Below are positions 5,490-37,728 of a stretch of DNA of 64,000 nucleotides, one piece after another (position 1 is the first letter of the stretch; each line of letters opens with the position of its first letter). A program made the position numbers and the translations under genes. Origin of the DNA: Oribacterium sp. WCC10 (GTDB taxonomy: Bacteria; Bacillota; Clostridia; Lachnospirales; Lachnospiraceae); the NCBI RefSeq assembly GCF_900113415.1, contig NZ_FOPH01000013.1, positions 1 through 64,000 on the forward strand, read 5' to 3'. Below the pieces are notes generated by a model, which had not been told where the DNA came from, did not search any database, and saw only the letters and a program-made list of their open reading frames with translations.

Positions 5490-5782
5490 TAATAACAAAA
5501 ACCGATGACAGAGAGAAGTAGTTTATCTTTATCGTTCCAGAGAGCTGCAGGTGGTGGGATTGCAGTATGTGCGGATAAGTGAATGGCCTCTGGAGGGTGC
5601 TCAGAAAGACATTATCGTTTATTATCGAAGTCAAGTATGCGGCAACGGGTTCTGCACCGTTATCAGGCAGCACATATGCTGGTATGTGAAGAGTGACCTT
5701 TTTTATGAAGGTAATATGAGTGGTACCACGGATTTATATATTCGCCTCATGTCGGGAGCAATCCTGACATGAGGCTTTTTTG
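5490..5782 (+). ncRNA. T-box riboswitch leader, tryptophan (UGG) specifier
   Basis: The order of elements is that of a class I T-box. A stem I start with CAGAGAGCTGCAGG and a GGTGG/GGGATTGCAG arm is followed by a specifier loop GTGAATGGCCTCTGGAG whose codon-like triplet is TGG at 5584-5586. The T-box sequence GAGTGGTACCACGG lies at 5718-5731, and a terminator stem GCCTCATGTC/GACATGAGGC with six Ts at 5744-5780. The TGG triplet implies binding of uncharged tRNA-Trp and readthrough on tryptophan shortage. The importer genes that follow match the trpXYZ group known to carry Trp T-boxes in Firmicutes. An apparent reading frame at 5551-5772 lies inside this RNA and is not a gene. Confidence 0.88.
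5744..5780 (+). terminator. T-box-controlled terminator
   Basis: 10-bp perfect stem GCCTCATGTC/GACATGAGGC and a T-run; mutually exclusive with the antiterminator that contains the T-box sequence at 5718-5731. Confidence 0.85.
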
Positions 5783-5794
5783 TGTATAAGTCCT

Positions 5795-5853
5795 GTATCA
5801 GATGTCTGTAAATACTGCAAGCCGGCTTGCAAGTATTTACAGACATCTGATAC
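5795..5853. repeat. 59-bp near-perfect palindrome between T-box and trpX
   Basis: The 29-base left arm starting GTATCAGATGTCTGTAAATA is repeated, inverted, in a 30-base right arm; the only difference is one extra base near the centre (GCAAGCCGGCTTGC). It can form an almost loop-free hairpin in the readthrough transcript. It is not part of the T-box fold. From here to the trpX ribosome binding site (about 165 bases) nothing else is recognised. Confidence 0.8.
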
Positions 5854-6025
5854 GACAACAGAAATCGAGAATAAGCACGATAGCGCGGATTCAAAATTCC
5901 TGTCAGGATTGCGAGAGTTGCGCAAAAACGAAGCATTCCGCAGGACTTATACCAATTCAGTATCACATGGCTCCAGTAAAAACGAATCATTACAAATTGA
6001 CGTAACATAATTGGAGGAAAAACAA

Positions 6026-23913: not shown

Positions 23914-26900
23914 TGCATATGGAAGATTTGACTTTAGAATTGCAAAGTAATTTGGATAAAATCAGAAGAACAGTGTTTAGGGAATATCTCTATAATGTCT
24001 CGGAAGAATTCCTTGTTTATCCGTTTGATAGGTATAACACCTATAAAAACGATAAAAAAGAGGATACCAAGAGAATAGTTCCCGATGCCAATATTCAATG
24101 TATCCATGTTGATAGATGGGTATATGACAAGAAAGAACAAATCATTGATAGATTTGCAAATGTGTATAGCTCTTTTTCACAAAGAAAAGATGCTATTGCT
24201 ATGCTCGTTAATAGAACAGTCGATGGTGCGGATTTCTATTTTGTAATCAGATCGGATTCGTCTCAAGGTGGAAATAAGACTAATACAAATAGTAGTTTGG
24301 ATTTACTGATAGCTTCTATAAAGGGGAACTTTCCAGGTACTATTGTAGAAAAGGTATCTTCCGTTCAAAAAGAAGTAATTGAAAAAAAGAATGGTGAGGA
24401 AGAAAAGAAAAATACAGATATTTGGGGACTTCGAGAGAAGGCGGCAATCTCAGCAATTACGAGTATTTCAAGTGATAAGTCTGAAAAACATCTTAGTCAG
24501 GGTTTAGAGAAGGTGCTAAGTGGTATTTCGCCAAAAGACAAAAAGGATGAGTATACACTTGTGTTTTTGGCAGAGCCTGTTTCAAACAAAGAAATAAAAA
24601 GCATTAAGAATGGATACGAAGCACTCGCATCAGGAATACATTCATATTCAGAATATCAGAGCAATGAAACATTGACAGAAGCGGTAACAGATGGCACTTC
24701 ATGGGCAACTGCGCATACAACAGGTACTAATCGTTCTATTGCAAAGACGAGGGGCATAAATGCTGGTGTATCTGGAAACCTTACAACTTCAGCAGGATGG
24801 TTGAAGGGAATAGTTAAGAATTGGAAGAAGGCAAAATCTTCTTCCGTAGGAGCAAATATTGGTTTTCAGTATTCAAGAACCACAACAGAAGGATCTATGA
24901 CAAGTGATACCGATACCGAAGGTACAAATCACTGTGTATCTAATGGTGCCTTAAAGGGAGAAACTCATACGGTAAAGTCATATCCTATAGCTGATATGCT
25001 TAAGAGAATCGAGAAGCAGATTGATCGCCTAGATGAGTGTGAAGGCGTTGGAATGTGGAAGAATGCCACATACGTTCTGGCGAACAACACAGTTCAGGCT
25101 GAGAGTGTTGCAAATTTTCTCTTGGGATTAATTCAAGGAAAAGAATCGTTTGTTGAAGCATCGGTTATTAATACATGGGCGAAGGCCAGTGATAAGGACG
25201 AGTTTAAGAATGTGTTGGAGTATATTTGTAATTTTTCTCATCCTCTTTTAGTAAATGCTTCTGATATTGAAAAGGTTGATGAAAAGAATACGGATAATGC
25301 ATATGCAATTGAACCTTTAATACTTGCAAATCAGGTAACATCAATAGAATTAGCTATGTTAATGGCATTCCCTTATAAATCCGTGAAAGGATTGTCATGT
25401 GTAGAATGCGCAGAGTTTGAAAGAAACGTTCTGTACAAAGATATTGATCGCTTTTCAAATAAGCGTATTGATGAAGTGGATGCAAAGAAACGCCAGATAA
25501 ATCTTGGTGAAATCTATCATATGCATGAGTTTGATGGAAAGAATGTACCTATTGATGTAGATGAACTGCCAAAGCATTCATTTATTACCGGATCTACGGG
25601 TTCTGGTAAATCTACAACAGTGTATAAAATACTACATGAATTATATAATAATTATAAGATTCCATTTCTGGTAGTCGAACCAGCAAAGGGTGAGTATTAT
25701 AAAGAGTTTGATAACATTGCCAGTATATATTCCACAAATAGCAATCACGGAAACTTACTGCGCTTAAATCCATTTTATTTTCCGGCAGAAGGTGAAAATA
25801 GGATATTTGTATCTGAGCATATCGATAGACTTAATAGTATTTTCAATGTGTGTTGGCCAATGTATGCTGCCATGCCGGCTGTATTAAAAGAAGCCTTGGA
25901 AGCGGCATATGAGGAAGCAGGTTGGGATTTGACATTATCGGTGAACAACGTAAGCAATAAGCTTTTCCCGACTTTTGACGATCTTCTCATACAGCTGAAA
26001 CGTGTGATAAATGCTTCGGATTTTTCAGAAGAAGTAAAAAGCAATTATACGGGATCTTTAATTACAAGAGTAAAGTCTCTTACAAACGGTATATATCGAC
26101 AGATTTTTACAGCAGATGGATTAGATGATGGGGAATTGTTTACAACTAATGTAATAGTAGATATCAGTAAAGTAGGTTCTCCGGAAACCAAGGCATTAAT
26201 CATGGGAATGATAGTAATGCGTATGCAGGAATACCATATGGCTAATAGTGAACCTGTTGATGAACTGCGGCATATTACGGTACTCGAAGAAGCTCATAAT
26301 TTGCTTAAGAAAACAAGTACAGAGCAATCCTCGGAATCATCAAATGTTCAGGGTAAATCAGTTGAGATGATAGCTAACGCAATTGCGGAAATGAGAACAT
26401 ATGGCGAGGGATTTGTGATTGCAGATCAGGCACCAGGGCTTCTTGATGAATCTGTTATCAGAAATACCAATACAAAAATGATTATGAGCTTACCTGATTT
26501 TTCGGATAGGGAGCTTGTAGGTAAGGCGGTTGGTTTGTCAGATGAGCAAGTGGTTGAGATTACAAGGTTGCCAAGAGGTAAGGCAGTAGTGTATCAAAAC
26601 AACTGGGTCGCACCAGTGTTATGTGCGGTAGAAGCATTTGATAAGTCTAAAGCTTCCGAAGAGAAAAAGAAGAGCTCCTTTGAAAAGAGGGAGTATGATG
26701 CGAAAAAGGTTAAAGCAACAATAGTAAATGCTGTATTACATAATAAGATAGATGACATTGGGACATACGAAGTAGAGGGCCTTCAAATCCTTAGCGTGCC
26801 TGCCAGCGCGAAGAAGAGGGTTTTGATGCACGTAAAGAATAATGCTCCTTTTAATAAACAGGATAGGATAGAAATTATAAATGACTTCTATGCTACCGAT

Positions 26901-27140
26901 TTTGTGAAGAGCGTAATGCTCAAAACAGAAGGTAATATTGAAATCATACAGGATAGTGATGTAGAAGCTCTTAAGGCTGAGTTCCAGAAATGGATAGAAG
27001 CAATAGGTGTAACAGAACAGATAGAAACAGTTGACTTAATGGGAATCATCAACATTATCCTTTATAAGATTGAGCAGGTTGAACAGGTTGAGCTTTCACA
27101 ATGTGAACGCTTGTTTAACTTCGCTGAACACTGGAGGTGA
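23913..27140 (+). CDS. HerA/DUF87-type ATPase
   Basis: About 1075 residues; the start is 23913, overlapping the previous stop, or 23919. The second half carries the HerA-FtsK superfamily motor: Walker [10 protein letters not shown] (560-568), LVVEPAKGEYY, Walker B ITVLEEAHNLL (Glu792-793) and the sensor region EGFVIADQAPGLLDESVIRN. The first ~500 residues are specific to this type and include a Ser/Thr/Gly-rich stretch near residues 255-345. Related motors pump DNA or protein through membranes or act in defence. No membrane helix is evident, so anchoring may come from the small protein upstream. The toxin-like gene follows 4 bases after its stop. Confidence 0.88.
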   Translation: MHMEDLTLELQSNLDKIRRTVFREYLYNVSEEFLVYPFDRYNTYKNDKKEDTKRIVPDANIQCIHVDRWVYDKKEQIIDRFANVYSSFSQRKDAIAMLVNRTVDGADFYFVIRSDSSQGGNKTNTNSSLDLLIASIKGNFPGTIVEKVSSVQKEVIEKKNGEEEKKNTDIWGLREKAAISAITSISSDKSEKHLSQGLEKVLSGISPKDKKDEYTLVFLAEPVSNKEIKSIKNGYEALASGIHSYSEYQSNETLTEAVTDGTSWATAHTTGTNRSIAKTRGINAGVSGNLTTSAGWLKGIVKNWKKAKSSSVGANIGFQYSRTTTEGSMTSDTDTEGTNHCVSNGALKGETHTVKSYPIADMLKRIEKQIDRLDECEGVGMWKNATYVLANNTVQAESVANFLLGLIQGKESFVEASVINTWAKASDKDEFKNVLEYICNFSHPLLVNASDIEKVDEKNTDNAYAIEPLILANQVTSIELAMLMAFPYKSVKGLSCVECAEFERNVLYKDIDRFSNKRIDEVDAKKRQINLGEIYHMHEFDGKNVPIDVDELPKHSFITGSTGSGKSTTVYKILHELYNNYKIPFLVVEPAKGEYYKEFDNIASIYSTNSNHGNLLRLNPFYFPAEGENRIFVSEHIDRLNSIFNVCWPMYAAMPAVLKEALEAAYEEAGWDLTLSVNNVSNKLFPTFDDLLIQLKRVINASDFSEEVKSNYTGSLITRVKSLTNGIYRQIFTADGLDDGELFTTNVIVDISKVGSPETKALIMGMIVMRMQEYHMANSEPVDELRHITVLEEAHNLLKKTSTEQSSESSNVQGKSVEMIANAIAEMRTYGEGFVIADQAPGLLDESVIRNTNTKMIMSLPDFSDRELVGKAVGLSDEQVVEITRLPRGKAVVYQNNWVAPVLCAVEAFDKSKASEEKKKSSFEKREYDAKKVKATIVNAVLHNKIDDIGTYEVEGLQILSVPASAKKRVLMHVKNNAPFNKQDRIEIINDFYATDFVKSVMLKTEGNIEIIQDSDVEALKAEFQKWIEAIGVTEQIETVDLMGIINIILYKIEQVEQVELSQCERLFNFAEHWR

Positions 27141-27144
27141 GTTG

Positions 27145-28308
27145 ATGGCTATTGAAATAGCGGGAATGGTTGCTAAAGCTGTTGAAACAGGAAAAAAAGT
27201 TGTTGAAGTCGCAAAAAAGGCAGAGAAAGTTGCTTCCTCCGTAAAGAAACCCGTTAAGGCGATTGAAAAAGTCACTGCTGACAAAGACGGAAATTGGGGT
27301 TCAGATATTGTCAAAGGTCAGGTGCAAAAAGGTGTTGGAGAGATTAAGAGTGTACTTTCAGATAAATTGAAAGACTATCTTAGCAAAGATGATATTCCTT
27401 CAAAGCCTACTGAAACTTCTGGAGAGGTTGGAATGCAAGAAGATATTAGTGGAAAGAAGGAGGGCGATGCACCTAAAGAAGAAAAAAACGGCTTAAAGGA
27501 TAGTTTGAACAGATACTTGGATTCTGCAGATAGTCAATCCAATAAAGGTGAAGATGTTCAAGATGACATCGTTAGTGATGAAAAAGAAAACGTCTCAAAT
27601 GATGCTAAAGATGATAATCTGAACCGCGACAATAGAGATAACAGCAAAAACGATGAAACAGGCGAAGAACCGGAAAATAAAAAAGAACCTGAGAATAATA
27701 AGGATATACCCAATAACAATAATAATACTACTAATGAGGTGGATAACACTGAATATAATGAAGATGGCACCAGAGAACTAACAGAAGACGAGAAGCAGGC
27801 TATCAAAGATAAATTAGGATGGTCTGACGAAAAACTGAAAAAATGTACAATAGATAAAGATGGCGTTATCCATTATAAAACAGATAGGTGTGACTTAGAG
27901 GGCAAGACTTCTGAAAATGGTGTGCCATATGAACGACGAAGAATTGTAATAAATGGCGTTACCATCGAAGGAGTTTTCCCGAAATTTGAAAGCGTTTTTG
28001 ATACAGAACTTGCTCCGGATAATTTGAAAACAAAAGCATATGCTAAGGAATGTAATGCAGCGCTGAAGGAAGCCATTTCGAACGATTCTGAGTTAAGAAG
28101 TAAGTTTACACCTGAACAGATAAAAGATATTGAAGAGGGTAGAACTCCCACGGGTTATGTTTGGCACCATAATGAAGAACCAGGAAAGGTGCAACTTGTA
28201 AAAAGAGAAGATCATGATCGAGCAATTGGTGGTGCAGCTCACACAGGTGGAAATTCTCTATGGGGTGCTGATAGTGTTGATAATAGTAGGAAGGAGGAAC
28301 ATTTCTAA
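27145..28308 (+). CDS. Polymorphic-toxin-like protein with C-terminal WHH nuclease domain
   Basis: 387 residues from the ATG at 27145; its GGAGG lies inside the end of the ATPase gene. Residues 1-85 are Lys/Ala/Val-rich helices with no classical signal peptide. Residues ~90-225 are a low-complexity Asp/Glu/Asn/Lys linker. Residues ~225-387 are folded and contain YVWHHNEEPGKVQLV (W340, H341, H342) and HDRAIGGAAHTGG, the signature of the HNH/Endonuclease VII WHH toxin nucleases. N-terminal targeting part, disordered linker and C-terminal nuclease are the layout of a polymorphic toxin. The next gene overlaps by one base and resembles its immunity protein. Confidence 0.82.
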   Translation: MAIEIAGMVAKAVETGKKVVEVAKKAEKVASSVKKPVKAIEKVTADKDGNWGSDIVKGQVQKGVGEIKSVLSDKLKDYLSKDDIPSKPTETSGEVGMQEDISGKKEGDAPKEEKNGLKDSLNRYLDSADSQSNKGEDVQDDIVSDEKENVSNDAKDDNLNRDNRDNSKNDETGEEPENKKEPENNKDIPNNNNNTTNEVDNTEYNEDGTRELTEDEKQAIKDKLGWSDEKLKKCTIDKDGVIHYKTDRCDLEGKTSENGVPYERRRIVINGVTIEGVFPKFESVFDTELAPDNLKTKAYAKECNAALKEAISNDSELRSKFTPEQIKDIEEGRTPTGYVWHHNEEPGKVQLVKREDHDRAIGGAAHTGGNSLWGADSVDNSRKEEHF

Positions 28309-32356: not shown

Positions 32357-32592
32357 CACCTAATTCTACCCAATAGTCTAAAATAATTCCACATAATCAT
32401 AAGTTAATGTTTTATGAAGATTTCAATTTCTCTTTAGATGCCGGATATTTAGTGTTATAATGCAGCAGACTTTATATAAACATTTATTTCCTTAAATATA
32501 GCATTATCCATATATACGGTCATATACATGAACCATATATCACTAATCCGGTTAATGTTTTCTGACAAACAATCGAAGAAAGGACCTTCACT

Positions 32593-33345
32593 ATGTCTCA
32601 GAAATTCAATGCAATTCTTTTAGATCTCGATGGTACACTTGTTAACACTCTTTACAGTCTTCAGGATACAATGAATAAGGCCATGGAACGTTTCGGATTT
32701 GATCCTATTTCCATGGAGCAGACAAAAAAATACGTCGGAGTGGGCAGCTACAAGTTTGTTGAACGTTCCGTTGAAGCAACCGCCAATCGTCTATACAGAG
32801 AGGCTGAAAAGTGGGAAGAGAAAGACGAGGACAAGGCATTTGACCTTGATCAGAAGGCTGACGAGGTTATGGAGCAGATCGACGATGCACATGAGGCATA
32901 CATGGAAATCTTCCGTGACAACTGTACATTTAAGGCAGAGCCTTACCCCGGAATGAGAGAATCTCTTGATGCTCTCAAGGCTAAGGGATGGAAAGTTGCC
33001 TGTATTACAAACAAACCTTTGGAAGAGGCAATATTAGTTCTCAATCACGCTTTTGGAGAAGGTTATTTTGATTACATTTCAGGTGATGACGGAACACATC
33101 CTTTGAAGCCTGACACAGGTGTTGTGGATGATACATTAAGCCATATAGGCTGCAGCAAAGAAGAGTGTGTTTACGTCGGTGATACAAACACAGATATGGA
33201 GACAGCAAAGAGAGCCGGTATAAAGTCCATCGGCTGTATCTATGGTTTCCGCAACCAGCAGGAGCTTGAAGAAGCCGGTGCTGATGTTCTCATAAAGAGC
33301 GCAGAAGATATAGTGAAGGCTATCGAATATCTTGAAAGTGTTTGA
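32593..33345 (+). CDS. HAD-superfamily phosphatase (phosphoglycolate phosphatase-like)
   Basis: 250 residues. HAD motifs: DLDGTLVN (nucleophile Asp in LLDLDGTL, residues 10-17), motif II VACITNKP, Lys in HPLKPDTG and motif IV YVGDTNTDMETAKRAG. The helical cap domain (residues ~20-110) is typical of the Gph subclass and includes a long charged helix (REAEKWEEKDEDKAFDLDQK). It dephosphorylates a small phosphorylated metabolite; 2-phosphoglycolate is likely but not certain. AAAGGA precedes the ATG. Confidence 0.85.
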   Translation: MSQKFNAILLDLDGTLVNTLYSLQDTMNKAMERFGFDPISMEQTKKYVGVGSYKFVERSVEATANRLYREAEKWEEKDEDKAFDLDQKADEVMEQIDDAHEAYMEIFRDNCTFKAEPYPGMRESLDALKAKGWKVACITNKPLEEAILVLNHAFGEGYFDYISGDDGTHPLKPDTGVVDDTLSHIGCSKEECVYVGDTNTDMETAKRAGIKSIGCIYGFRNQQELEEAGADVLIKSAEDIVKAIEYLESV

Positions 33346-33407
33346 TTGTGCAAAACTGATTTTACAAAATTTTCATTATTTAAGCCGTTTTATGGCAGTT
33401 TCGTCTG

Positions 33408-33436
33408 TTGACAATGATTTTTCATGAACCTATAAT
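33408..33436 (+). promoter_or_regulatory. Consensus sigma-A promoter of the CobW-like gene
   Basis: TTGACA (33408-33413), exactly 17 bases, TATAAT (33431-33436). Confidence 0.85.
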
Positions 33437-33462
33437 TAGCAATGCTGAATCAAGAGTGCTAA
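33436..33462. promoter_or_regulatory. CIRCE-like HrcA operator
   Basis: TTAGCAATG - 9 bases - GAGTGCTAA. The right half is identical to the CIRCE consensus, the left half matches 7 of 9, and the spacing is exact. It begins at the last base of the -10 element, where a bound repressor would block transcription. Confidence 0.65.
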
Positions 33463-33630
33463 TTTTGTATACACATTCATTCAGCCTGAAACGTTGATGG
33501 ATTTTTCTTTTAGAGTTTTTAGATGCCATCATTAATATAGATTATTCTCATCTATAAACGCATATTTTGGGTCGTTTATCTCTGGCATACAGATGTCAGT
33601 CTAATCAGCTCATTACTGGAAGGAGTAATT

Positions 33631-34974
33631 ATGACAAGTATAGATATCGTTTCCGGTTTCCTTGGAGCCGGCAAAACAACATTTATCCAGAGACTTCTGG
33701 ATGAAGCATTAAAGACAGAAAAAGTGGTTCTCATCGAGAACGAGTTTGGCGAGATCGGAATCGACAGTGGTTTCCTCAAGGATTCAGGAATCCAGATCCG
33801 TGAGATGAACCAGGGATGTATCTGCTGCTCACTTGTAGGCAACTTCGAGCAGTCACTCACTGAGGTTGTCAATACTTATAAGCCTGACCGTATCATCATC
33901 GAGCCTTCAGGTGTAGGTAAGCTTTCTGATATCATCGGTGCAGTCAAGTCTGTTTCAGAAAACCTTGAAGTAGAGCTTCACGCTGCAGTTACAGTTGTAG
34001 ATGCCAAGAAGGCAAAGATGTATTCCAAGAACTTCGGTGAGTTCTTCAACAACCAGATCGAGTATGCAGGTACTGTTGTTCTTTCCAGAACTGATATAGC
34101 TGACGATGCAAAGATCGGTGAAGCTGTTTCTATCATAAAGGGAATCAATGAGCGTGCTACAGTTATCACAACACCTGAGGCAGAGCTTACAGGCGAGCAG
34201 CTCGTTAACATTATCTCAAAGAAGTATGATCTTGCAGAGGAGATGCTTGAGGATGTTATGGAGCGTGTTCATGAGCACGAGGGTCACGAGCATGAGGATG
34301 AGCATGATGAAGTAGAGACTCTTCCAAACGGTGTTCAGATTCACCACAGTCATTCACACCATCACCATCATCACGATCACGAGCATGAGCATGAGCATCA
34401 CCACCATGACGAGGATGAGCATGAGCATCATCACCACCATGAGGACGGTGAGGAATGCTGTTGCCACCATCATGACGAGGATGAGCATGAGCACCATCAC
34501 CACCATGAGGACGGTGAGGAATGCTGTTGCCACCATCATGACGAGGATGAGCATGAGCACCATCACCACCATGACCACGACGATGAGTGTTGCAGTCATC
34601 ATCATGATGAGGATGAGCACGATCATCATCACCATGAGCACGATCATGAGCATCATCACGATGGATGCTGCTGCGGACACGATCACGATGCCGATGAAGT
34701 ATTTAAGACCTGGGGTGTAGAGACTCCTTATGCATTTGAGAAGGACAAGCTCTCACAGATTCTTGAAGAAATGGCTCATTCCGAGAAGTTCGGTAAGGTC
34801 GTAAGATGTAAGGGAATGCTTCCTACAAAGGAGACCGGAGAGTGGATGTACTTTGATCTCGTTCCTGAACAGACTGAGATCAGATCAGGCTCACCTGATT
34901 ACACAGGTAAGGTTGTTGTTATCGGAGCTGACCTTAATGAGAGTGCACTTCGCGAAGCATTTGCAGGAATGTAA
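33631..34974 (+). CDS. CobW/COG0523 GTPase with long His/Cys-rich metal-binding region
   Basis: 447 residues. Walker A GFLGAGKTT (9-17), the CxCC metal motif GCICC (62-66) and the family IENEFGEIGID are intact. Residues ~210-355 are an insert of His, Asp, Glu and Cys built from four tandem units of about 22 residues (two units match almost exactly in DNA), each with H-H-H-D-E-D-E-H-E-H and C-C-C blocks. A short CobW C-terminal domain follows. COG0523 proteins deliver or store zinc, cobalt or nickel; the insert would bind many ions. It is preceded by a perfect promoter and a CIRCE-like operator and followed by a related gene. Frames in the insert on other strands are shadows of the repeat. Confidence 0.92.
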   Translation: MTSIDIVSGFLGAGKTTFIQRLLDEALKTEKVVLIENEFGEIGIDSGFLKDSGIQIREMNQGCICCSLVGNFEQSLTEVVNTYKPDRIIIEPSGVGKLSDIIGAVKSVSENLEVELHAAVTVVDAKKAKMYSKNFGEFFNNQIEYAGTVVLSRTDIADDAKIGEAVSIIKGINERATVITTPEAELTGEQLVNIISKKYDLAEEMLEDVMERVHEHEGHEHEDEHDEVETLPNGVQIHHSHSHHHHHHDHEHEHEHHHHDEDEHEHHHHHEDGEECCCHHHDEDEHEHHHHHEDGEECCCHHHDEDEHEHHHHHDHDDECCSHHHDEDEHDHHHHEHDHEHHHDGCCCGHDHDADEVFKTWGVETPYAFEKDKLSQILEEMAHSEKFGKVVRCKGMLPTKETGEWMYFDLVPEQTEIRSGSPDYTGKVVVIGADLNESALREAFAGM

Positions 34975-34979
34975 AAAAT

Positions 34980-35010
34980 ACGACGGTGATTTCCATCACC
35001 GTCGATTTAT
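34980..35010 (+). terminator. Hairpin between the two CobW-like genes
   Basis: GACGGTGA-tttcca-TCACCGTC then GATTTATT; weak T-tract, so readthrough into the second gene is possible. Confidence 0.5.
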
Positions 35011-35070
35011 TGCATTTATAAACAATTATCATCCGTAACCGATGTAATATTTTTTTGAAATGGAGTTTTT

Positions 35071-36111
35071 ATGGCAACAAGTGATAATTATGAATTAAGA
35101 GATGATCAGATTCCTGTATTCCTCATTAACGGATTTCTTGAGGCAGGAAAAACTGATTTTATAAAGTACACCATGGCACAGGAGTACTTCCAGGCTGAAG
35201 GCACAACACTTCTCCTTCTTTGTGAAGAGGGTGAGTCTGAATATGATGACGCGACACTTGAGAAGTACCATACAGTTAAAGTTGTCATGGAAAATGAAAC
35301 TGATTTCAATGAAGAGAATCTCAAAAAGCTTCAGGAGCAGTATAACCCTGAGCGTATCATCATTGAGTGGAACGGAATGTGGAATCAGGATGATCTTTTC
35401 AACGGTCCTATGTCAGAGGTAGCTCTTGCGGAGCAGCAGGGTCGCGATCCTGAATACGTTCTTTCACTTCCAGAGTCATGGGTCATCTATCAGGTGATCA
35501 CCATCATCAACGGCGCGACACTTGACCTTTACTTGAACAACATGAAGAGCTTCATTGGTCAGATGCTTCGTCAGGCTGAACTTTGCATCGTCAACCGTTG
35601 CGATAACATACCTAATGAGAAGCTTGTAGACTACAGAAGAAAGTTAAGAGCCATGGGTCAGAATGCCATGCTTGTTCTTGAGGGCAAGGATGGTGAGATA
35701 CCTCAGGATACTCTTCCGGAGGATCTTCCATACGACATCAACCAGCCTTCTTTTGCCATCAATCCTGAGGATTACGGTACATGGTTCGTTGACTGTATGG
35801 ACAATCCGGATCGTTACATCGGTAAGGAGATCACTTTTACCGCCATGGTTCTCAAGAGAAACGGAAGCCCTAAAAACGAAATCGTTCCGGGACGTATGGC
35901 AATGACCTGCTGTGCGCAGGATATGACATTCCTCGGATATGTTGCCAAGGCTGATCCTGCAGTTCTTGCTCCATACAACACAAGAGACTGGGCTAAGATC
36001 ACAGCTGTAGTAGGCATGGAAGAAAGAGAAGAGTATGGCGGAGAGGGTCCTGTTCTTGATATAAAGAAGATTGTAAGAACAGGTGCAATCGATGATGCTG
36101 TAACATTCTGA
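35071..36111 (+). CDS. CobW-like GTPase with DUF1980/TIGR03943-like C-terminal domain
   Basis: 346 residues. The P-loop GFLEAGKTDF (21-30) and RIIIEWNGMW match CobW-type G domains, but the CxCC metal motif is missing and the sequence has LLCEEGESEYDD instead. The C-terminal third (residues ~235-346; YIGKEITFTAMVLKRNGSPK and VPGRMAMTCCAQDMTFLGY) resembles the C-terminal part of the TIGR03943/DUF1980 proteins that normally partner a DUF318-type permease. That permease is not present here. A role in metal handling beside the His-rich GTPase is likely by position; the fusion suggests a GTP-driven metal chaperone. Separate domain search is needed to confirm the C-terminal match. Confidence 0.75.
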   Translation: MATSDNYELRDDQIPVFLINGFLEAGKTDFIKYTMAQEYFQAEGTTLLLLCEEGESEYDDATLEKYHTVKVVMENETDFNEENLKKLQEQYNPERIIIEWNGMWNQDDLFNGPMSEVALAEQQGRDPEYVLSLPESWVIYQVITIINGATLDLYLNNMKSFIGQMLRQAELCIVNRCDNIPNEKLVDYRRKLRAMGQNAMLVLEGKDGEIPQDTLPEDLPYDINQPSFAINPEDYGTWFVDCMDNPDRYIGKEITFTAMVLKRNGSPKNEIVPGRMAMTCCAQDMTFLGYVAKADPAVLAPYNTRDWAKITAVVGMEEREEYGGEGPVLDIKKIVRTGAIDDAVTF

Positions 36112-36210
36112 TGATATAAATCATTTCACAGATAATATACGCGCTTAATCATAGACCTGAGGCTATATATTGGCCTCTGCACAATCTGACACATCGGAAC
36201 CATCGTCACC

Positions 36211-36292
36211 GACACAAATGTAAGTCCGACACAGTACTTCTGTAGATATATCCTATCTCACGAAGCTGCTGTGCCGGACTCTTTTTATTTCT
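36211..36292 (+). terminator. Terminator upstream of the second ABC cassette
   Basis: AGTCCGACACAG ... CTGTGCCGGACT with inner CTTC/GAAG and a TTTTTATTT tail; long loop. The rest of 36112-36453 is AT-rich spacer; no T-box or other known leader is present. Confidence 0.7.
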
Positions 36293-36453
36293 CACATAAC
36301 CCAAAGTAATAAAGTGAAAAAATATCATAATTCCATCTTGATATCCCATTATCCTTGTCCTATACTATAAACAATAAATCGATTTAAAGTGTTAAAGTGT
36401 AAAGCACAAAATCAAAATTTGAGATTGGTTTACAAAGGAGAGGAGATAGTGAT

Positions 36454-37506
36454 ATGAAGAAAATGAACAAATTAACAGCAGTTTCAATGGCAGCTGTTCT
36501 TGCTGCCGCTTCACTTTCAGCTTGCGGCGGATCAGCACCTGCAACCACCGAGACCAAAGCAGCTTCATCAGACGGAGCAACAGCAGCCGCTACAGAGGCA
36601 GCCAAGGATACAGCTTCTTCTGACAAGAAGTTCAAGGTTGGTATCTGCCAGCTCGTTCAGCACAATGCTCTCGATGCAGCCACAAAGGGTTTCATCGATG
36701 TACTGAAGGAAGAGTATGGTGACAATATCGTCATCGACGAGCAGAACGCACAGGGTGATTCAGCAACATGTACCACTATCGTAAACGGTTTCGTTTCAAA
36801 CGAATATGACCTTATCCTTGCAAATGCTACTCCTGCACTTCAGGCAGCCATGAACGCAACAGAGGATATCCCAATCCTTGGAACTTCCGTAACAGATTAC
36901 GGCACAGCACTTGCGATGGACAGCTTTGATGCTTCCAAGGGAACAGGCATCAATGTTTCCGGAACATCGGATCTTGCTCCGCTTGATCAGCAGGAAGACA
37001 TGATCCTTGAGCTCGTTCCTGACGTAAAGAAGGTTTCCATCCTTTACTGTTCAGCAGAAGCAAACTCACAGTATCAGGCAACTCAGATTGAAAAGTATCT
37101 TGAGGAAGACGGCGTAGCTTATGCCGAGTTTACATTCTCGGATTCAAACGATCTCCAGTCTGTTGTTCAGTCAGCTATATCAGATTGCGATGCAATGTAT
37201 ATCCCTACAGATAATACAGCAGCTTCCAATATGACTGTAGTAAACAACATCGTTCAGCCTGCGGGTATTCCTATCATCTGTGGTGAAGAGAACATGATGA
37301 AGTCAGGTGCTCTCGCAACTCTTTCTATCAGCTATGAGGATCTTGGCCGTGCAACAGGTAAGCAGGCTATCGAAATCCTTTCAAACGGTGCAGATGTAAA
37401 GACAATGCCTATCGCTTATGCAGAGGCTACTACCAAGGAGTACAACAAGGCTTACGCTGATGCCATCGGTATCACAATTCCTGATGACTACAAGGCAGTA
37501 GAATAA
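36454..37506 (+). CDS. ABC importer substrate-binding lipoprotein, paralogue of TrpX
   Basis: 350 residues with AAAGGAGAGG before the ATG. A signal peptide ends in lipobox LSACGGSA, followed by an Ala/Thr/Ser/Glu linker and an ABC_sub_bind-type domain (KVGICQLVQHNALDAATKGF, YDLILANATPALQAAMNATE, DAMYIPTDNTAASNMTVVNN). It is clearly related to the 6026-7126 protein in layout and motifs. The absence of a Trp T-box means that its ligand need not be tryptophan. GC and codon use are like the core genes. Confidence 0.85.
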   Translation: MKKMNKLTAVSMAAVLAAASLSACGGSAPATTETKAASSDGATAAATEAAKDTASSDKKFKVGICQLVQHNALDAATKGFIDVLKEEYGDNIVIDEQNAQGDSATCTTIVNGFVSNEYDLILANATPALQAAMNATEDIPILGTSVTDYGTALAMDSFDASKGTGINVSGTSDLAPLDQQEDMILELVPDVKKVSILYCSAEANSQYQATQIEKYLEEDGVAYAEFTFSDSNDLQSVVQSAISDCDAMYIPTDNTAASNMTVVNNIVQPAGIPIICGEENMMKSGALATLSISYEDLGRATGKQAIEILSNGADVKTMPIAYAEATTKEYNKAYADAIGITIPDDYKAVE

Positions 37507-37541
37507 TTCGCGTTCATTTGTGATACGGACTTATCCAACAA

Positions 37542-37596
37542 AACAATACTCAGTACGGTATTGAGTTCTTTGATACTGTGCTGAGTTGTTTTTTTC
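37542..37596 (+). terminator. Strong hairpin inside the second ABC cassette
   Basis: ACTCAGTACGGTAT pairs with ATACTGTGCTGAGT (two wobble pairs) with an AACAAT/TTGTT extension and TTTTTTT. It lies between the binding-protein and permease genes, so would raise binding-protein expression relative to the transporter. Confidence 0.8.
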
Positions 37597-37728
37597 AGAC
37601 AAGTCCCGTTCAACGCGTGATGTATCGGTAAGACAACGGATTTTATACACACTTGTTGATACGTCAGGTCAAAAAGTGACGGCGGTTTCTTTGCCGCTCA
37701 CATAAAAATATTAACGGAGATTCAGACA

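Follow-up and report, generated by a model that had tools for sequence, protein, structure and literature searches.

A conserved CIRCE-type operator suggests HrcA control of a COG0523 metallochaperone-type gene pair in Oribacterium

The analyzed window, a 64-kb stretch of the 3.64-Mb Oribacterium sp. WCC10 assembly (genome G000), contains two adjacent genes for CobW-type GTPases, termed here cobW1 and cobW2, which are preceded by a promoter, an inverted repeat resembling the CIRCE operator of the HrcA repressor, and an untranslated leader (Table 1). The initial annotation had described the first gene as a COG0523 metallochaperone-type GTPase, an assignment borne out by the Pfam models cobW (1.1e-38) and CobW_C (2.1e-10). 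COG0523 is described as a metal-homeostasis family of G3E GTPases (PMC9164220). The GCICCS stretch is invariant in the 16 cobW1 orthologs, out of 17, that were aligned, and the His/Glu/Asp/Cys-rich linker is encoded by tandem repeats at positions 34365-34658 (66-bp unit, 3.6 copies); the length of the protein differs among species. In genome G014, the coding sequence is split between two frames, the first giving 279 aa and the second the C-terminal part, which reflects a frameshift or an assembly error. The metal handled by both products is most likely zinc, judging from the protein family and the DUF1980 partner.

Table 1. Features of the cobW1-cobW2 locus, with positions in the window, and CIRCE sites of heat-shock genes in the same genome
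Feature	Position	Strand	Description
-35 box TTGACA	33408..33413	+	read in the sequence and found by promoter scan; TTGACA in 15/15 operator-bearing orthologous promoters
-10 box TATAAT	33431..33436	+	final T doubles as the first T of the operator
Candidate CIRCE operator (HrcA site), TTAGCAATG-N9-GAGTGCTAA	33436..33462	+	2 mismatches
Leader, untranslated	33463..33630	+	168 bases; ribosome-binding site AAGGAG at 33620-33625; ATG at 33631
cobW1	33631..34974	+	COG0523/CobW G3E GTPase, 447 aa; CICC motif; long His/Glu/Asp/Cys-rich linker
Intergenic hairpin	34981..35004	+	10-bp stem; T tail weak on the + strand, better on the minus strand
cobW2	35071..36111	+	CobW-type GTPase domain fused to a C-terminal DUF1980 domain, 346 aa
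CIRCE site of hrcA			own genome, 0 mismatches
CIRCE sites of hsp20, clpB and lon			own genome, 1 mismatch each
CIRCE sites of ftsH and htpG			own genome, 2 mismatches each
CIRCE site of groES-groEL			own genome, 3 mismatches; groEL read from its translation

The cobW2 gene follows cobW1 in 15 out of 17 genomes of the genus, the remaining two having a cobW1 piece at a contig edge, and it is probably the second gene of a cobW1 operon. Cotranscription is likely, though not certain, as transcription might stop at the intergenic hairpin before reaching cobW2. Hairpins of the same 10-bp stem type are present in G000, G004, G006, and G013, and other stems lie between the two genes in G002, G011, G014, and G016; perfect stems of at least 6 bp are absent from this gap, which is very short in several cases, in G001, G003, G005, G007, G008, G009, and G010, which completes the 15 genomes compared.

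A consensus TTGACA-17-TATAAT promoter overlapped by TTAGCAATG-N9-GAGTGCTAA, as proposed in the initial annotation, was confirmed at positions 33408-33436, with one T common to the -10 box and the repeat. This promoter scores 12 out of 12 and is the sole perfect one among seven promoter-like sites in a scan of 5.1 kb (32500-37600), where promoter-like sites as such are no commoner than in shuffles (shuffle mean of 10.7 versus 7 observed). The full operator stretch reads TTAGCAATGCTGAATCAAGAGTGCTAA; compared with TTAGCACTC-N9-GAGTGCTAA, it matches 16 of the 18 arm positions with exact spacing, and the two mismatches that had been noted in its left half were located at left-arm positions 7 and 9. 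The transcription start, as predicted from the position of the -10 box, would fall inside the operator. The window contains a single occurrence of the CIRCE pattern at up to three mismatches, whereas 100 shuffles of the window gave a mean of 0.01 sites (any site in 1 of 100 shuffles).

The same earlier reading had pointed to an uncharacterized leader of about 170 bases. Its length is as described, whereas distinctive content was not found: leaders across the genus range from 32 to 192 bases and share no conserved sequence, and Rfam gave no match in the leader of the window, so that a riboswitch or structured leader was rejected as a candidate. An Rfam search at E up to 1 returned three matches, each located within the His-codon repeats of cobW1 and scoring far below its gathering cut-off. 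Elsewhere in the window, positions 5496-5949 contain a T-box leader with a Clostridiales-1 RNA close behind.

The CIRCE pattern with up to three mismatches was found at eight places in the 3.64-Mb genome, versus one place for the reversed control pattern. The remaining seven sites are all located upstream of heat-shock genes (Table 1), which were named by Pfam or, for groEL, from the translation. HrcA itself is encoded once in this genome, behind the CIRCE site without mismatches (PF01628, E 1.5e-56), and it is present in all 17 genomes of the genus. In six annotated genomes we identified 42 CIRCE sites at the same threshold, including 38 at heat-shock genes, three at cobW1, and one other. Sites at hrcA, groESL, clpB, hsp20, lon, and htpG occur in each of the six genomes (in G001 and G002, the lon site lies 199 and 67 bases, respectively, before the start of the open frame that runs into the match), and ftsH has a site in two of them, G000 and G007. 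A three-mismatch site in G002 (C12:83484) was rejected as a regulon member, as it matched none of 12 reference proteins, and was treated as chance. The premise that CIRCE is normally limited to groE/dnaK operons does not hold for this genus, where the operator is also found at clpB, hsp20, lon, htpG, and, in two of the six genomes, ftsH. A scan for TATAAT abutting CIRCE across the family had matches in 355 of 397 genomes and was too unspecific to reveal further cobW targets.

Two Pfam models for CtsR had no match in any of the 17 genus genomes; among the control genomes they matched in Lactococcus only and missed B. subtilis, which has ctsR, so their sensitivity may be low and the absence of CtsR from the genus is probable rather than proven. 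HrcA may have taken over genes that are under CtsR elsewhere. In G000, the CIRCE site of ftsH lies between a copper-ATPase/CsoR-type gene pair and ftsH on contig C13 (L012, 271-5492), so that the gene directly follows a probable copper-response operon; the order csoR-CIRCE-ftsH also occurs in G007 (L172).

For quantitative comparison, a position matrix was built from the 38 heat-shock CIRCE sites of the six genomes (G000, G001, G002, G003, G007, and G010), leaving out the three cobW1 sites and one site without assignment. By this heat-shock-only matrix, the cobW1 operator of the window scores 27.9 bits, above the groESL (23.9), ftsH (25.3), and htpG (26.1) sites of the same genome, which belong to the training set, so that the comparison favors them and not the cobW1 site. 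The second-best position within the window scores 8.4 bits, and 60 mononucleotide shuffles, which amount to 3.84 Mb of sequence, reach 13.1 bits at best. Four of the 15 orthologous cobW1 sites lie below the weakest training site (23.5 bits), namely those of G005 (23.3), G003 (22.1), G010 (22.0), and G016 (19.6), and all 15 exceed the best shuffle. Functional CIRCE elements of Mycoplasma gallisepticum are reported to carry at most two mutations (PMC5138195), a limit exceeded by five of the 15 cobW1 sites, which have three or four mismatches. For the window site, the concern that two mismatches could abolish binding is weak, because the groESL site of the same genome has three. As judged from its sequence, the window site is an authentic operator of the HrcA/CIRCE type.

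L046 and L047, the two nearest named relatives, belong to Oribacterium, and orthologs of cobW1 are present in all 17 genomes of the genus. In 15 of these genomes the gene is preceded by the operator, with two mismatches in ten genomes, three in G003, G005, and G014, and four in G010 and G016; in each case the operator begins at the end of the -10 box. Fourteen of the 15 operators carry the complete GAGTGCTAA as their right arm. The left arm keeps TTAGCA (TTGGCA in G005 and G016, TCAGCA in G003) and then varies; it is canonical in none of the 15 sites, so the affinity for HrcA may be low or tuned. Among nine divergent species (G000, G003, G008, G009, G010, G012, G014, G015, and G016; six closer relatives of G000 were omitted), the most frequent base is shared by an average of 8.4 of 9 species in the operator arms, by 4.7 of 9 in the N9 spacer, and by 4.0 and 3.8 of 9 upstream of the -35 box and downstream, respectively. 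The resulting footprint comprises the -35 box, the -10 box, and the operator arms, and little else is held across the nine species. Sequence comparison establishes the operator at cobW1, its conservation, and which genes bear CIRCE sites.

This footprint contradicts the view of the repeat as a chance match without function, a view that could draw on its two mismatches and on its absence from G001, G002, and all 78 examined loci outside the genus (among the best 80 of at least 590 matches); with 0.01 such sites expected per 64 kb and a fixed position in 15 of 17 genomes despite diverged flanks, we consider it exceedingly improbable. Another repressor, for example a metal sensor with a CIRCE-like operator, might instead bind the inverted repeat, as the left arm departs from TTAGCACTC in all 15 orthologous sites with a signature of its own (approximately TTAGCA for six bases, followed by two variable positions and, in 14 of 15 sites, a G) and the downstream genes are of metal type. 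However, the same loosened second arm is seen at the genome's own heat-shock sites (groESL, TTAGCAACG; lon, TTAGCAATC; htpG, TTAGCAGTA), the opposite arm is intact in all but one of the orthologous sites, and a paralogous gene pair next to a Fur-family gene bears a different palindrome, TTGCAACATTGTCGCAA; binding by another repressor thus appears unlikely.

Two genomes of the genus, G001 and G002, encode HrcA and the gene pair and have no operator at cobW1 (the best stretch within 1500 bp has seven mismatches). One of the seven-mismatch stretches in G001 overlaps TATAAT and might be a relic, although chance would also account for it. Upstream of cobW1 in G002 (contig C1; L032, L177), the palindrome AAAGTTAAGTATAGCTAACTTT lies just before the promoter and is a possible replacement operator.

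The initial proposal was to scan orthologous promoters for the same repeat; conservation was confirmed within the genus, whereas it did not extend to the relatives outside. The relatives examined were the best 80 of at least 590 confirmed stretches, two from Oribacterium, both with the operator, and 78 others. Among these best 80, none of the 78 others has the operator with up to four mismatches within 400 bp upstream (three regions being shorter than that), nor does any have it within 1500 bp upstream (available at full length for 72 of 78). Stretches with five or six mismatches in four of the 78 regions were read as chance. Counts of inverted repeats and 8-mers in the same upstream regions revealed no common operator, and the commonest 8-mers are partly derived from RNase P RNA genes. 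A word typical of RNase P RNA occurs within the upstream 300 bases in 13 of these 78 relatives; in all nine of the 13 loci that were run through Rfam, the match is closely preceded by an RNase P RNA gene (L053, L057, L062, L063, L077, L093, L107, L109, and L124, all from other Lachnospiraceae, with the cobW1 ortholog close behind the RNA gene), and Rfam gave no match at six other loci. The cobW1 gene of the window follows a HAD phosphatase gene rather than RNase P RNA; thus, a different neighborhood accompanies the different operator.

The cobW1 tree includes 19 outgroup rows and was drawn with a midpoint root; within the genus, it joins the pair of G001 and G002 to the operator-bearing G003 (support 97/81), and the deep forks of the genus lack resolution. 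Because of this grouping, the simplest history is that the operator arose at the base of the genus, or close to it, and was lost once. Together with the presence of the operator in 15 of 17 genomes inside the genus and in none of the 78 relatives outside it (among the best 80 of at least 590), this placement suggests that an enlarged HrcA regulon probably acquired the metallochaperone pair early in the genus, near its base, and that one branch later lost this control.

HrcA is activated by free GroESL (PMC3828012, PMC3842655). We consider it highly probable that the repeat is a functional CIRCE operator, by which HrcA would repress cobW1-cobW2 until the pair is released together with the heat-shock genes, and that the two products handle a transition metal. 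The earlier suggestion that HrcA controls a COG0523 gene is strongly supported by the presence of HrcA, by the matrix score above that of the groESL site, and by the retention of the operator in most of the genus, while HrcA binding, GroEL control, and heat induction at cobW1 are predicted from established HrcA biology. In unstressed cells, HrcA kept active through free GroEL would bind positions 33436-33462, where it would cover the border of the -10 box together with the predicted transcription start, and block RNA polymerase at an otherwise consensus sigma-A promoter. Once unfolded proteins occupy GroEL, HrcA would be inactivated and released, and cobW1-cobW2 would be transcribed along with groESL, hrcA-dnaK, clpB, hsp20, lon, htpG, and ftsH. 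At that point, the His-rich COG0523 GTPase and the partner with the DUF1980 fusion would most likely hold or deliver a transition metal, probably zinc, at a time when damaged metalloproteins undergo refolding, remetallation, or degradation; DnaJ and FtsH are candidate clients. Such metal buffering or re-delivery would be the most likely benefit of HrcA control over the pair.

A weaker form of this explanation, which is not exclusive of it, is that HrcA binds but represses modestly, leaving cobW1-cobW2 nearly constitutive with a small heat induction. The perfect -35 and -10 boxes, the imperfect left arm, and the low matrix scores of some orthologous sites are in line with modest repression, as is the report that the C. 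acetobutylicum gene CAC2705, which has an HrcA site, was only weakly overexpressed (PMC3828012). However, an operator placed over the start site suits repression, the groESL site is a poorer match, and the operator is conserved across the genus, so that we regard modest repression as rather unlikely.

The paralogous pair is located on contig C46 of the same genome (approximately 25090-27900; L010, L006, L208), where a cobW2-like gene and a cobW1-like gene are followed by a Fur-family gene; the cobW1-like product shares 31% identity with cobW1 in the G domain. The 17-bp palindrome TTGCAACATTGTCGCAA precedes this pair, and a second similar stretch, TGCGACTGTGTTGCA, follows the -10 box. The motif TTGCAACANTGTTGCAA with up to two mismatches occurs at three places in the genome and is operator-like only before the paralogous pair; the other two places (two mismatches each) are inside or beside genes without an obvious metal role. 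The C46 pair and its Fur-family gene are likely to form a self-regulated Zur-type operon, and this seemingly metal-regulated arrangement supports a division of labor between the pairs. DnaJ and FtsH are zinc proteins. It is possible, as a tentative extension, that the two CobW plus CobW-DUF1980 pairs answer to different masters, a Fur-family regulator upon metal shortage and HrcA upon protein damage, with metal re-supply serving DnaJ and FtsH. If so, metal re-supply would form an integral branch of the heat-shock response for zinc-dependent members of the regulon such as these two proteins.

HrcA regulons are usually described as consisting of chaperones and proteases. The findings suggest that metal allocation is probably part of protein quality control in one bacterial genus and that metal delivery in Oribacterium is probably under joint control with the response to protein damage, which would represent a case of class I regulon widening in a lineage where CtsR was not detected. 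The conserved HrcA site further suggests where to seek clients of this uncharacterized COG0523 branch, namely among heat-damaged metalloproteins. A search of open-licence PMC literature (regulon databases being outside its scope) turned up no paper that places a COG0523 gene under HrcA; within that literature, cobW1-cobW2 is an unreported target of a known regulator acting by an ordinary mechanism.

Among the known systems, the enlarged HrcA regulons are similar in having targets or affected genes beyond groE/dnaK: clpB and lon in Spiroplasma (PMC5138195), htpG and the membrane protein gene CAC2705 in C. acetobutylicum (PMC3828012), rpoH in Geobacter sulfurreducens (PMC545781), and, in L. plantarum, the unknown gene lp_1880 and the integrase gene lp_1268, which are affected by loss of hrcA (PMC3842655); unlike the pair described here, the targets named in the passages considered from these four papers do not include a COG0523 gene. 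The sole solved relative of cobW1 at E up to 0.001 is E. coli YjiA (PDB 1NIJ, 4IXM, and 4IXN; best E 7e-24, G domain), which is not expected to share HrcA control, as the control genomes in which HrcA was detected do not include E. coli. The zinc-starvation GTPases of the ZigA/ZagA and YciC type are controlled by Zur. They resemble cobW1 in protein family, CxCC motif, and His-rich stretch; however, the cobW1 promoter carries CIRCE, and the NCBIfam model NF038288 for ZigA gave cobW1 77.5 bits against a cut-off of 600. The class I HrcA/CIRCE systems of groE and dnaK operons share with cobW1-cobW2 the arms, the 9-base spacing, the place of the operator over the promoter start, and an encoded HrcA, whereas the genes behind the operator in the window are a metal-type GTPase pair instead of a chaperone or protease, and its left arm has two mismatches.
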